Shown here: piece by piece, positions 28,118-31,985 of the stretch
Numbering within the stretch: the first letter of the stretch is position 1
Layout: each line of letters opens with the position of its first letter
Assembly: GCF_002214365.1 (NCBI RefSeq)
Contig: NZ_CP014854.1
Span: 868,001 to 932,000 of the forward strand
Source: Thermococcus celer Vu 13 = JCM 8558
Lineage (GTDB): Archaea > Methanobacteriota_B > Thermococci > Thermococcales > Thermococcaceae
Direction of reading: 5' to 3'
DNA: 64,000 bases
Translations under genes and position numbers: made by a program
The notes under the pieces: model-generated
Told to the model about the DNA's origin: nothing
What the model saw: the letters and a program-made list of their open reading frames with translations, nothing else
Databases searched by the model: none

Positions 28118-29392
28118 CTATCCCCTCTTCCTCCCCCACCTGACCTGAGCCGTGAGGATCTTCTCGGTGGAGAACAGCCGGGCCGTTGCGTAGAGCACCG
28201 CGATGGCCACGATGGCCAGGTAGGCGAGACTTATCCCCATCGGCGCGTAGTCCCTCATGAGCACGTACCTGTAATCCACCACCGGATGCGTGAAGGGTAT
28301 GGTCAGCAGGGCGTACCTTGCAAGGGCAGGGAGATCGTTGACGTCGGTGTACATGAGCAGGAACGCGGGAAAGGCCAGCGGGAGTATCACGGCGCTGACG
28401 AGGGTCGTGGCGCTCTGGACGTCCTCCGCGAAGGTTGCCACCATCATCGCCAGGCCGAGCGCTATGATTATCGCGAGGAAGACGACGAGCGCGAACATGA
28501 GCGCCCCAGTGGCGGTAACGGTTAAACCGAGGTCCTCGAGGCTTATCCCCGCGGATCCGAGGTTAAAGGAGCCCATGTAGTAGCGCATACCGACCATGTA
28601 CGCCACCGCCGCGACCAGGCCCATCATCGCCGTCCCGAATATCTTGGCGGCCACTATCTTCGTCCTCGCCACAGGGAGCGTCAGGAGCGTCTCCAGCGTC
28701 TTGTTCTCCTTCTCGCTCGCCACCGCCCCGGCCGCCATCTGCGAGGTCACCATTATCATCAGGAAGACTACGAGCGGTATCGTGAAGGCCTGCGTTGCTA
28801 TGACGCTTGAAACCACGGCTGGAGAAGCGTTAACGATGTTGTTGCGTATCACCGACCTGCTCTCGACCGTTATCGGCCTAAGGATCGCATCTGGATTGCC
28901 CGCCCCGAGCTTCTCCACCTTTATCTTCGCTATCTCGTCGCTCAATATTCCAATGACGGCGTTTATTCTGCCCTCGCTGACGCTCTCCTTCATCCCCGTG
29001 CTCACGGTGGTGAAGATGCCGTATATCCCCACCGTGGCGGTCTCGTTTGACTCGAGCCTGGCCGTGAAATCCGGTGGGATAACCACAAGAACGTTCTGTT
29101 TCTCCCGGATGGCCCTATGGATGGCTTCATCGAGCGTCGTCGCGTTGACCACGGTTACGGTGACGTTCGGGGTCACCTCGAGGGCCTTTATCAGAACACC
29201 GCCGTAGGCGCCCTCATCGAAGTTGACTATCGCGACGTGGGTCTCTCCCTGGGCCCTCTCCATCCCGACGTTCACCGCCTTACCCATCGCCGGGAGGAGA
29301 ATGAGCGGCACGACGACGAGGCCGAAGAGGAGCTTCTTATCGCGGAACAGGTTCCATACTTCTTTCTTCGCCATCACCCAGAAGTCGCTCAA
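28118..29392 (-). CDS. ABC-2 type transporter permease (NatB-like)
   Basis: A 424-residue permease. The N-terminal helix (LLFGLVVVPLILLPAMG) is followed by a large extracytoplasmic domain of about 150 residues. A cluster of five or six helices comes after it. The EKENKTLETLLTLPVARTKIV segment is the conserved cytoplasmic loop of NatB/CcmB-type exporters. Its substrate is unknown: such systems export Na+, drugs or lipids. The 5' end overlaps the ATPase gene by 4 nt. It is the last gene of the operon that starts near 31045. Confidence 0.87.
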   Translation of the reverse strand: MSDFWVMAKKEVWNLFRDKKLLFGLVVVPLILLPAMGKAVNVGMERAQGETHVAIVNFDEGAYGGVLIKALEVTPNVTVTVVNATTLDEAIHRAIREKQNVLVVIPPDFTARLESNETATVGIYGIFTTVSTGMKESVSEGRINAVIGILSDEIAKIKVEKLGAGNPDAILRPITVESRSVIRNNIVNASPAVVSSVIATQAFTIPLVVFLMIMVTSQMAAGAVASEKENKTLETLLTLPVARTKIVAAKIFGTAMMGLVAAVAYMVGMRYYMGSFNLGSAGISLEDLGLTVTATGALMFALVVFLAIIIALGLAMMVATFAEDVQSATTLVSAVILPLAFPAFLLMYTDVNDLPALARYALLTIPFTHPVVDYRYVLMRDYAPMGISLAYLAIVAIAVLYATARLFSTEKILTAQVRWGRKRG

Positions 29393-30147
29393 CTCCCCTC
29401 ACCCCCTATGGGCTCGCCTGCCTCCACCCCAACGGCCCTCATGAAGACCTCCTCGAGGTTTCTGGCGTCGTAGCGCTCCTTCAGCTCCTCCGGCGTTCCC
29501 ACCTCGACTATCCTCCCCTCGTTTATCAGGGCGACCCTGTCGCACAGGAACTCGACCTCGAGCATGTTGTGGCTCGAGAGGAGAAACGTAACGCCCTCTT
29601 TCCTCGCGAAGCGCCTTATCGTCTGCCTTATGGTGTAGGCGTTGACTATGTCGAGGCCGCTCGCGGGCTCGTCGAGTATGGCCAGCCGCGGTTTAACCAT
29701 CAGGGCCCTCGCTATGAGGAGCTTCCTCGTCATCCCCTTGGAATAGGTGGAGACCTTGTCGTGAAGCCTCTCCCCCAGGCCGGAGAGCTCTACCCCGAGC
29801 TTTAGCATCTTCCGGGCCTTTTCTTCGTCCTTAGCATAGAGCCTCGCCATGAAGTCGAGGTACTCGTAGCCTGTGAGGTTCTTGTAGGCCCCGGCCTCCT
29901 CCGGCAGGTAGCTTATGATCCTCCTGACCTCGTCGGCCTCCCCGACCACGTCGTGGCCGTCCACCCTCGCGCTCCCGCCGGTGGGTTTGAGGAGTGTGGA
30001 CAGGATCTTCAGCGTCGTGCTCTTTCCAGCCCCGTTCGGGCCGATGAGCCCGAATACTTCGCCCTCTTCGATGGTGAAACTTATCCCTTTGAGCGCCTTC
30101 ACCCTTCCGTAGTCCTTCTCGAGGTTCAGAACTTCAACCAGGGACAT
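29389..30147 (-). CDS. ABC transporter ATP-binding protein (NatA-like)
   Basis: A 252-residue ATPase partner of the permease. Motifs: Walker A GPNGAGKSTTL, Q-loop SYLPEEAG, signature STYSKGMTRKL (a YSKGM variant in place of LSGGQ, seen in NatA-type exporters), Walker B LAILDEPASGLD, and switch SSHNM. ATG 30147 overlaps the end of the upstream membrane gene; a longer frame to 30177 is not supported by a ribosome site. Confidence 0.88.
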   Translation of the reverse strand: MSLVEVLNLEKDYGRVKALKGISFTIEEGEVFGLIGPNGAGKSTTLKILSTLLKPTGGSARVDGHDVVGEADEVRRIISYLPEEAGAYKNLTGYEYLDFMARLYAKDEEKARKMLKLGVELSGLGERLHDKVSTYSKGMTRKLLIARALMVKPRLAILDEPASGLDIVNAYTIRQTIRRFARKEGVTFLLSSHNMLEVEFLCDRVALINEGRIVEVGTPEELKERYDARNLEEVFMRAVGVEAGEPIGGEGS

Positions 30148-30466
30148 TCCGAGCCCCCCGGATTTTGTGGAACGCAACGCCGAGGGTCGCCAGAACCAGC
30201 CCGAAAAGGAAAAGGCTCCAGATTCTGGAATAACCGCCGATTATTGCGATCCCCACCCCGCTCGAAAGGGCGATCCAGGCGTCGCGGTAATTTGAGTCCC
30301 CGAATTCATGGGCGAACCCGAGCAGGAGGGAGCCGATGATAACGAGGCCGAGCCCGGCAAGCAATAGGACATCGATCCCTGCGGTTTCGGCCATGAAGGG
30401 TACGGTGACGCCGAGGGCGATGCCCCCAAGATAAAGCAGGACCCCAACGGCTTTTTTAGCGTTCAT
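30134..30466 (-). CDS. Small membrane protein of unknown function
   Basis: A 110-residue protein with four hydrophobic segments ([60 protein letters not shown]). I do not recognise the family. It sits between the HTH regulator and the ABC transporter genes. It overlaps both, so it probably belongs to the transporter system. ATG 30466 follows GGTGA; a GTG at 30475 is an alternative. Confidence 0.75.
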
Positions 30467-30665
30467 CCCCTTCACCCCCGTAGATGAACACTTCCTCGAT
30501 TTTAACCCCGAAGAACCTCGCGATTCTGAAGGCCAGCCTAAGCGAGGGGTCGTACCTGCCCTTCTCGATGGCGATTATCGTCTGCCTCGTAACGCCCAGA
30601 GCCCTGGCGAGCTCCTCCTGGGTCAGACCCCTGCCCTCCCTCAGCTCGCGGAGGCGGTTCCTCAT
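30456..30665 (-). CDS. Small HTH transcriptional regulator (XRE family)
   Basis: A 69-residue protein made almost entirely of a helix-turn-helix: [19 protein letters not shown], then [18 protein letters not shown], and [15 protein letters not shown]. This is the compact Cro/YgzD-like type that accompanies DUF2178 proteins and ABC exporters in archaea and Firmicutes. ATG 30665 has GGTGA upstream and overlaps the DUF2178 stop by 1 nt. The longer frame to 31112 is not coding. It is the obvious candidate to bind the double palindrome at 31057-31088 upstream of its operon. Confidence 0.9.
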
Positions 30666-31045
30666 CACATCACCCTCGAGTAGTGGTGCCTCAGCCCGAC
30701 CTTCAGGACCGCGACGAGGACCATGAGGATGGACGATAGGTAGTAAGCGCTTCTGAGGCTTGGATGGGTGTCTGAGAGAACCGCGAGGGTCAGGGTCACG
30801 AAGGCCAGGACGATTACCATCGCCTGGAGAGTTCTCCGCGATGCGGCCTCGTCTATCCTGAGCGTCCTCTCGTCGCTGAAAACCTCTCCCCTGCCCTTTA
30901 ACCACTCGGAGTAGAACAAAGACGCAACTATGGCCACGGCCAGAACTCCAAAGGCGAGGGGCAGACTCCTCATCCAGACGGCCACCGCCAGGAGGACGGC
31001 CACGATTACGGTTATCGCGTAACCGGTGATTCTCCCTCTCTCCAT
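30665..31045 (-). CDS. DUF2178 family membrane protein
   Basis: A 126-residue protein with four hydrophobic helices. A cytoplasmic loop reads [20 protein letters not shown], where DER..RI...A.RRT is the DUF2178 core. DUF2178 genes are commonly found just before a small XRE regulator, as here, and may act as its membrane sensor. It is the first gene of the operon DUF2178-HTH-membrane protein-ABC ATPase-ABC permease (31045 down to 28118). Confidence 0.85.
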
Positions 31046-31056
31046 GCTCCCACCAT

Positions 31057-31100
31057 GTAAAGTTTCCTTTACGTAAAGCTTCCTTTACATCCTTATAAGG
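31057..31100 (-). promoter_or_regulatory. Operon promoter with two adjacent palindromic operators
   Basis: Two 16-nt units stand back to back: GTAAAGTTTCCTTTAC (31057-31072) and GTAAAGCTTCCTTTAC (31073-31088). Each is GTAAAG-n4-CTTTAC. Immediately upstream in the minus direction is the TATA CCTTATAAGG (31100-31091). The expected start of transcription (about 31070) falls inside the operators, so a bound protein would repress. Autoregulation by the HTH protein at 30456-30665 is the likely purpose. Confidence 0.7.
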
Positions 31101-31112
31101 CTTTCCCCTCAA

Positions 31113-31122
31113 AGCTTTTAAA
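31113..31122 (+). promoter_or_regulatory. tRNA-Leu promoter (TATA box)
   Basis: The TATA element GCTTTTAAAG lies about 27 nt before the mature 5' end of the tRNA gene, the usual spacing in Thermococcales. Confidence 0.6.
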
Positions 31123-31146: not shown

Positions 31147-31234
31147 GCGGGGGTTGCCGAGCCTGGCCAAAGGCGCGGGATTTAGGGTCCCGTCCCGCAG
31201 GGGTTCGCGGGTTCGAATCCCGTCCCCCGCACCA
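31147..31234 (+). tRNA. tRNA-Leu, anticodon UAG
   Basis: A type II (long variable arm) tRNA of 88 nt including an encoded CCA. The acceptor stem GCGGGGG pairs with CCCCCGC, followed by discriminator A and CCA. The anticodon stem CGGGA/TCCCG encloses the loop TTTAGGG, giving anticodon TAG (leucine, CUA codons). The T arm has GGGTTCGAATCCC. No intron is present. Confidence 0.95.
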
Positions 31235-31282
31235 TTCAGCCCTTTTAAAAAGCGCCCTTCTCACTATCGTTCGAACATCCTT

Positions 31283-31842
31283 CAGCCCTTTGCTCCGCAA
31301 GCGCTGGCGGAAATGGGCGTGGCTCCTTTTAAGGTGGTTGTGATGTGTTTGCATTGTAAAGAAGTTTTTTGAGTTTGGAATTCGCCGTTAACGTGTTATT
31401 GGTGGGGGGTTTGCTTTTGGATAGCGCTCCTTCGGAGCGCGGGAGATTGCAAACCCCTTGAATTTGACCTTTTAATCCCGAATTCGAGTTTTAAACGCCT
31501 TTTAACAGCGCAAACACAACTAAACAGCCCCCTGAAGGAATCACAAGCTTTTCGCCAGCCTTTTCCCAAAAGGCTGATTACAACCCTTTGGGAAAGCGTT
31601 GACGGAAAACTGGCGTGCGGTTTTAAAGTTCGGTGTTTTAGCGTGGATTAACGCTCAAACTGATTTTGTAGTGTTTCACTCTCACAAGGCGTTCGGAGAA
31701 CGCCAGAATAAAAAGTGAAACCTGTTCAGGGATTGGTCTTAATGCTAATCCCTCTTTGATTCTCCAACTTTTAGAGTGCACGCTCTCATCCCAGCCTTTT
31801 ATGAGAAAGGGCATTTTTCGCCAGCCTTTTCCCAAAAGGCTG
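31283..31842. repeat. Foldback repeat block, copy A (two tandem REP-like hairpin-bounded elements)
   Basis: This is most of a 750-bp gap without genes. It consists of two elements, 31283-31576 and 31581-31842. Each begins with a hairpin such as CAGC..GCTG or CAAC..GTTG followed by a foot GCGGAAA/ACGGAAA, and ends with the same kind of hairpin inverted (TTTTCGC before CAGCCTTTTCCCAAAAGGCTG). The interior folds back too. In element 1, GGGGTTTGC (31406) pairs with GCAAACCCC (31449) around GCGCTCC-TTC-GGAGCGC. In element 2, GTTTCACT (31673) pairs with AGTGAAAC (31714) around GGCGTTC-GGA-GAACGCC. A near-identical block is at 60011-60571. No protein is supported. Confidence 0.8.
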
Positions 31843-31985
31843 CAAGACGCCCGACGGGCGCCAGAATAAAAAGTGAAACCCCCCTGTTTTCAGGCTAATT
31901 GAGAGCGAGCTATCCCCCGTTTGCTCAAGTTTTCCAAAAAGTTGAGAGGTGGAAAATCCGGAGAACAGAAAGGGGAAGGGGGGAG
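31843..31985. repeat. Partial third foldback unit and non-coding remainder
   Basis: Immediately after copy A, 31844-31882 repeats the core of element 2: CAAGACGCCCGACGGGCGCC followed by AGAATAAAAAGTGAAACC. The outer pairing arm is missing, so it is a truncated copy. From about 31885 to the stop of the rhomboid gene I see nothing further. Confidence 0.55.

Follow-up and report, generated by a model that had tools for sequence, protein, structure and literature searches.

Twin abutting palindromes in the promoter of a Thermococcus celer ABC exporter operon as a probable double operator of the operon's own small XRE regulator

The window analyzed here, i.e., the whole stretch of 64,000 nucleotides from the Thermococcus celer Vu 13 genome, contains a minus-strand operon with genes for, in this order, a DUF2178 protein, a 69-aa XRE regulator, a small membrane protein, an ABC ATPase, and an ABC-2 permease. 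The features of the operon and its promoter are as follows:

31093..31098, minus strand: TATA box TTATAA of the operon promoter, with a BRE-like AAAGCC before it (from the sequence)
31055..31090, minus strand: 36-bp conserved putative operator block AT-GTAAAG-N4-CTTTAC-GTAAAG-N4-CTTTAC-AT (from column conservation)
31073..31088, minus strand: candidate TATA-side operator GTAAAGGAAGCTTTAC, between the TATA box and the predicted start (exact sequence)
31057..31072, minus strand: candidate promoter-proximal operator GTAAAGGAAACTTTAC (operon strand), from about +1 into the leader (exact sequence)
30665..31045, minus strand: DUF2178 small membrane protein with a DER motif and C-terminal HYYSRVM, a candidate sensor partner (Pfam PF09946, E 1.2e-10)
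30456..30665, minus strand: 69-aa XRE/Cro-C1 regulator with recognition helix RQTIIAIE (residues 27-34; Pfam HTH_3, E 2.1e-20)
30134..30466, minus strand: 110-aa membrane protein without a Pfam family, kept in part of the relatives
29389..30147, minus strand: ABC transporter ATPase (Pfam ABC_tran; 76-88% identical in relatives)
28118..29392, minus strand: ABC-2 type permease (Pfam ABC2_membrane_3, E 5.3e-36)

The start of the XRE gene overlaps the stop of the DUF2178 gene. The XRE protein belongs to the XRE/Cro-C1 (HTH_3) family based on its match to PF01381 over residues 5-58 (E 2.1e-20); its structure model (pLDDT 91.8) places the recognition helix at residues 27-34, and the model and the PDB matches agree with the HTH_3 assignment. 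A PDB search with the window's DUF2178 protein gave no match, and we found no paper in the open-access literature on DUF2178 or on the archaeal operator described here.

The sequence GTAAAG-N4-CTTTAC occurs twice at 31057-31088. On the plus strand, 31057-31072 reads GTAAAGTTTCCTTTAC and 31073-31088 reads GTAAAGCTTCCTTTAC; on the operon strand, the TATA-side copy is followed by the promoter-proximal copy without a gap. The first-pass annotation had described two abutting 16-nt palindromes with one loop base different, lying directly after the TATA box of the operon; sequence and coordinates proved exact, and the pair begins 4 bp downstream of the TATA box. The distance from the center of an archaeal TATA box to the transcription start is usually 22-27 nt, and because of this spacing, the start is predicted at ~31068-31074, i.e., at the junction of the two palindromes. 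The half-sites within each palindrome are 10 bp apart, close to a full turn of the helix, which suits a Cro/C1 dimer, and the centers of the two palindromes are 16 bp apart, which places them on nearly opposite faces of the DNA. On the other side of the operon promoter, a tRNA-Leu gene (31147-31234, plus strand) diverges from the operon; its likely TATA box at ~31114-31122 is within ~30 bp of that of the operon, and the two promoters are back to back. The lower-GC intergenic stretch adjoining the tRNA-Leu gene (31240-31960) contains dispersed repeats (TTTTCGCCAGCCTTTTCCCAAAAGGCTG twice and ...GCCAGAATAAAAAGTGAAACC twice) and has no relevant Rfam family; an 80-nt probe from it had 25 matches in the genome.

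No exact match to GTAAAG-N4-CTTTAC other than these 2 copies exists in the 1.87-Mb genome. A simple composition model predicts that chance would yield ~0.06-0.11 such matches in each genome and adjoining pairs at ~1e-9 to 1e-8. When two mismatches or fewer were allowed, we obtained 31 matches versus 32 in a reversed control. We rejected a wider regulon in the T. celer genome, as matches with one or two mismatches (e.g., L003, L004, L008, L009, and L014) are no commoner than in the control and those inspected lack a convincing TATA/operator arrangement. The search of the genome for further copies, proposed at first pass to define the regulon, thus returned the two exact copies alone; elsewhere, the regulon is not always one operon (see below).

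We surveyed 94 genomes of the family for the 32-bp twin, allowing up to 3 mismatches and using a reversed control. The twin was identified in 80 of the 94 genomes, including 69 of the 74 of good quality, and the control gave none. It is present in exactly one copy per genome, except for G084 with two, and always heads an operon holding the 69-aa XRE gene (the G085 twin is at a contig end, and no XRE gene was found there). XRE orthologues with 75-90% identity were found at 86 loci in the 94 genomes, all 86 with TRQT in the recognition helix, and wherever there is enough sequence, the order of the ABC genes behind them is unchanged. Because one to five small membrane genes, mostly for DUF2178 proteins, intervene, the distance from the twin to the XRE start varies (~0.3-1.65 kb), unlike the distance from the twin to the TATA box, which is nearly constant in most of 81 promoters. 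Among the 175 ORFs between twin and XRE gene, 168 fall into one similarity cluster and 158 have the DER motif; most of the examples tested score as DUF2178, with 1-5 tandem paralogues in relatives. In G084 (locus L096), two complete twins are located at about −1416 and −516 from the XRE gene, an arrangement that would fit a duplicated operon head or its division into two units.

A comparison of 78 distinct promoters revealed that the palindrome arms and the outer AT/AT are near invariant and that the TATA-side loop varies; the promoter-proximal 16-mer is identical in 64 of 81 orthologous promoters. Column conservation falls off on leaving the 36-bp block, except at positions of the TATA/BRE and the ribosome-binding site; the coding sequence that follows is not conserved. 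TATA box and BRE are kept in nearly all orthologous promoters. The conserved unit is slightly longer than the 32 bp originally noted, i.e., 36 bp with AT at both ends. Whether the palindrome precedes orthologous operons had been left as a check; it is present in essentially every family genome with an intact region, and this conservation ahead of the regulator's own operon across relatives marks regulator and site as a probable autoregulatory pair.

Five good-quality genomes lack the twin (G034, G006, G056, G040, and G009). The complete genome of G034 keeps the ABC ATPase (at 82%) and the permease, while the DUF2178 and XRE genes and the operator are gone; the TATA box of its ABC operon remains, without operator or regulator. 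In G006, also complete, the ATPase is kept at 78%, all that is left of the XRE gene is a small reading frame similar to its C-terminal end (MFIYEED), and the decayed operator reads GAAGTTTACTCTAC and then ATAAAGGAAACTTTAC. Operator loss or decay accompanies XRE loss in both of these complete genomes, as predicted, though the number is small. In G056, XRE and ABC ATPase are both absent, possibly on missing contigs, and incomplete genomes without twin and without XRE (G045, G051, G056, G083, and G088) were left out as evidence. G040 has a single site 85 bp before the XRE gene, and in G009, the XRE gene is intact, the TATA-side site is degraded, and the other site is near-perfect. Because G009 keeps XRE with a degraded site and G040 has a single one, two perfect sites appear not to be indispensable.

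Seven genomes, six of genus g5 and G093 of g6, have a single exact extra site. It lies upstream of another ABC-2 permease gene, with the TATA box on one side and the start codon on the other; where there is enough sequence, an ABC ATPase gene comes next. The loci of this second ABC operon with a single site are L140, L141, L143, L145, L167, L168, and L169, and in most of the seven, a gene for a conserved 109-aa protein, which we take to be YbjQ-like, lies beside it. Because a second ABC exporter also has a single site in its promoter, the sites would act in trans and would not merely reflect the history of one operon. The single-operon picture drawn at first pass stands insofar as the twin heads the XRE operon, and it is widened by the second ABC operon of genera g5 and g6. 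As further targets, we considered additional exact sites in G022 and G063 and rejected them, since they are not in promoters of such a type.

Related sites were also found beyond the family. In the f2 relative G094, whose XRE protein is 65% identical, a TATA box is followed by two sites 21 bp apart, a small ORF, a DUF2178 gene, and the XRE gene, and four f3 genomes have ATGTAATATATTTTTTACAT directly after the TATA box and before DUF2178-like genes and an XRE gene. The sites of the f2 relative and the four f3 relatives are of the ATGTAA/TTACAT type and adjoin the TATA box. We then used 78 further XRE homologues from many archaeal and bacterial phyla, picked by protein similarity and not by site. 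TGTAA-N8-TTACA with at most one mismatch is present upstream of 41 of these 78 XRE genes (12 exact); the remaining 37 have no such site upstream within one mismatch. No permuted half-site exceeded 5 genes (0 exact) and no alternative spacer exceeded 6, and a downstream control gave 7. Site pairs are 18-23 bp apart in the archaeal loci L180, L193, and L197 and in the bacterial L249, 42 bp apart in the archaeal L187, and 40-47 bp apart in the other, bacterial loci. In bacterial loci, the sites cover the −35 and start region, and TTGACA, i.e., the −35 hexamer, often forms the right half of the upstream one. Between site and XRE gene, 35 of the 41 operator-bearing distant loci have a small multi-TM ORF, 23 of these with DER; the archaeal ones tested are DUF2178, and the bacterial ones tested match no Pfam family above its cut-off. 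The half-sites accompany XRE homologues that share the recognition helix in other archaea and in bacteria. A paralogous XRE group (L102-L105 and L160-L162) has the helix RRETI, and several of its loci adjoin small membrane-protein-like ORFs; L102-L105 have no such palindrome upstream, and an operator of the group's own was not found.

Based on these comparisons of sequences, we consider it highly probable that the palindromes are the double operator of the operon's own 69-residue XRE protein, with two dimers occluding the promoter in a self-repressing circuit. That the small XRE protein of the operon is the candidate regulator had been suggested at first pass, and family conservation, co-loss, and the half-sites shared with homologues all support this suggestion. 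One XRE dimer would bind downstream of the TATA box and ahead of the start, and a second, beside it, over the start and early leader; this putative pair of physically bound dimers would block the pre-initiation complex by denying promoter access to RNA polymerase and perhaps to TFB. Against this reading, the 16-bp spacing would place the two dimers on nearly opposite DNA faces, and any direct contact between them is hypothetical. XRE would thereby repress its own operon, including the membrane partners and the ABC exporter, and in some genera also the second ABC exporter; with the repressor encoded in the operon that it controls, the circuit would be self-limiting. The DUF2178 proteins, whose genes come first in the operon, would be membrane sensors or anti-repressors that release XRE upon a presumed signal, in the manner proposed for CylR1/CylR2; the gene order makes a pairing of DUF2178/DER proteins as sensors with XRE likely.

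The sequence alone does not name the binding protein, and another cellular regulator could bind the palindromes. We regard this as quite unlikely, since the sites are confined to the XRE operon and, in two genera, a further ABC operon, track the presence of XRE, and follow XRE homologues with the same helix into other phyla. Slightly less improbable, and still unlikely, is that XRE is an activator, or both activator and repressor, aiding TBP/TFB or RNA polymerase from downstream of the TATA box. Some archaeal regulators do activate, while repression by promoter occlusion is common in archaea (PMC5569661). The retention of TATA box and BRE in nearly all promoters would suit an activator; however, sites that fill the interval from the TATA box to the start and cover the start itself are typical of occlusion, the bacterial sites cover the −35 and start region, and the ABC operon of G034 keeps its TATA promoter without operator and regulator. 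We therefore favor repression rather than activation by XRE.

Two further alternatives concern what the palindromes are. The junction CTTTACGTAAAG is an uninterrupted 12-bp palindrome and near invariant, and it could be the functional site of one dimer in place of two N4-spaced sites. This is very unlikely given that G040 and the second ABC operon each have a single N4-spaced site without the junction and that pairs in distant relatives are 18-47 bp apart. The least probable reading, to which we give hardly any credence, is that the palindromes act in the transcribed 5′ leader, folded into RNA hairpins: although the promoter-proximal copy could pair into a 6-bp stem capped by a GAAA loop, the TATA-side copy would be untranscribed given the predicted start, loops vary and include non-GNRA ones, and the bacterial upstream copy overlaps the −35 box. 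Rfam contains no family on the palindromes. The double operator of two N4-spaced sites bound by XRE remains the reading that we adopt.

With this analysis, what began as a guess based on a single sequence becomes a testable pair of regulator and operator spanning a whole family. The archaeal group concerned is amenable to genetics, and most of its regulators are without a known site; the analysis provides a sharp annotation motif, two natural knock-outs, and a route to the exporter's trigger. The data also suggest that, in Bacteria and Archaea alike, the DNA half-site recognized by this one type of small, membrane-partnered repressor is the same. More tentatively, and as a possibility that we rate just short of an even balance, Bacteria and Archaea may share a phosphorylation-free membrane-signaling module in which small multi-TM DER-loop proteins, of the DUF2178 family in archaea and of unnamed families in bacteria, govern the activity of a CylR2-like repressor. 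In such a module, the operator ATGTAA-N8-TTACAT would be kept across the domains and the two-operator spacing would differ, i.e., 16-23 bp downstream of the TATA box in most archaeal loci versus 40-47 bp framing −35/−10 in most bacterial loci, with 1-5 tandem sensors acting on one ABC-exporter repressor in Thermococcales-like archaea.

Among solved structures, DR_2454 of Deinococcus radiodurans (PDB 9k3w) is closest to the window's XRE protein (53-56% identity, TM 0.84-0.90). CylR2 of Enterococcus faecalis (PDB 1utx and 2xiu) is a small XRE repressor (66 aa) with the same fold over its whole length; it and the window's XRE protein share the RQTI recognition residues at 44-45% identity and TM 0.82-0.86 (Foldseek TM 0.86), and the phmmer match over residues 3-62 (E 3.8e-12) makes the protein CylR2-like. 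The CylR2 gene has a partner gene for the small membrane protein CylR1, and in the window, the DUF2178 gene, which overlaps the XRE start, takes the corresponding place. However, CylR1/R2 are transcribed divergently from their target, which makes a lantibiotic toxin, whereas in the window, membrane proteins, XRE, and exporter are in one operon with an archaeal TATA promoter. After 9k3w and CylR2, the nearest solved structure is C.AhdI. This restriction-modification controller and C.BclI are small autoregulatory XRE dimers with a similar fold (TM about 0.7), but they have only 30-37% identity and neither a membrane partner nor an exporter. Restriction-modification controller proteins have two neighboring operators in their own promoter. 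Phr of Pyrococcus furiosus is an archaeal repressor that binds 29 bp overlapping the transcription start (PMC6316755) and differs in being an ArsR family protein with a heat-shock regulon and a different site. Together, the comparisons support a CylR2-like membrane-partnered autorepressor acting on an archaeal promoter through a tight twin operator kept across the family; such an autorepressor is of a known kind, and the tight twin operator on an archaeal TATA promoter would be a new variant of it.
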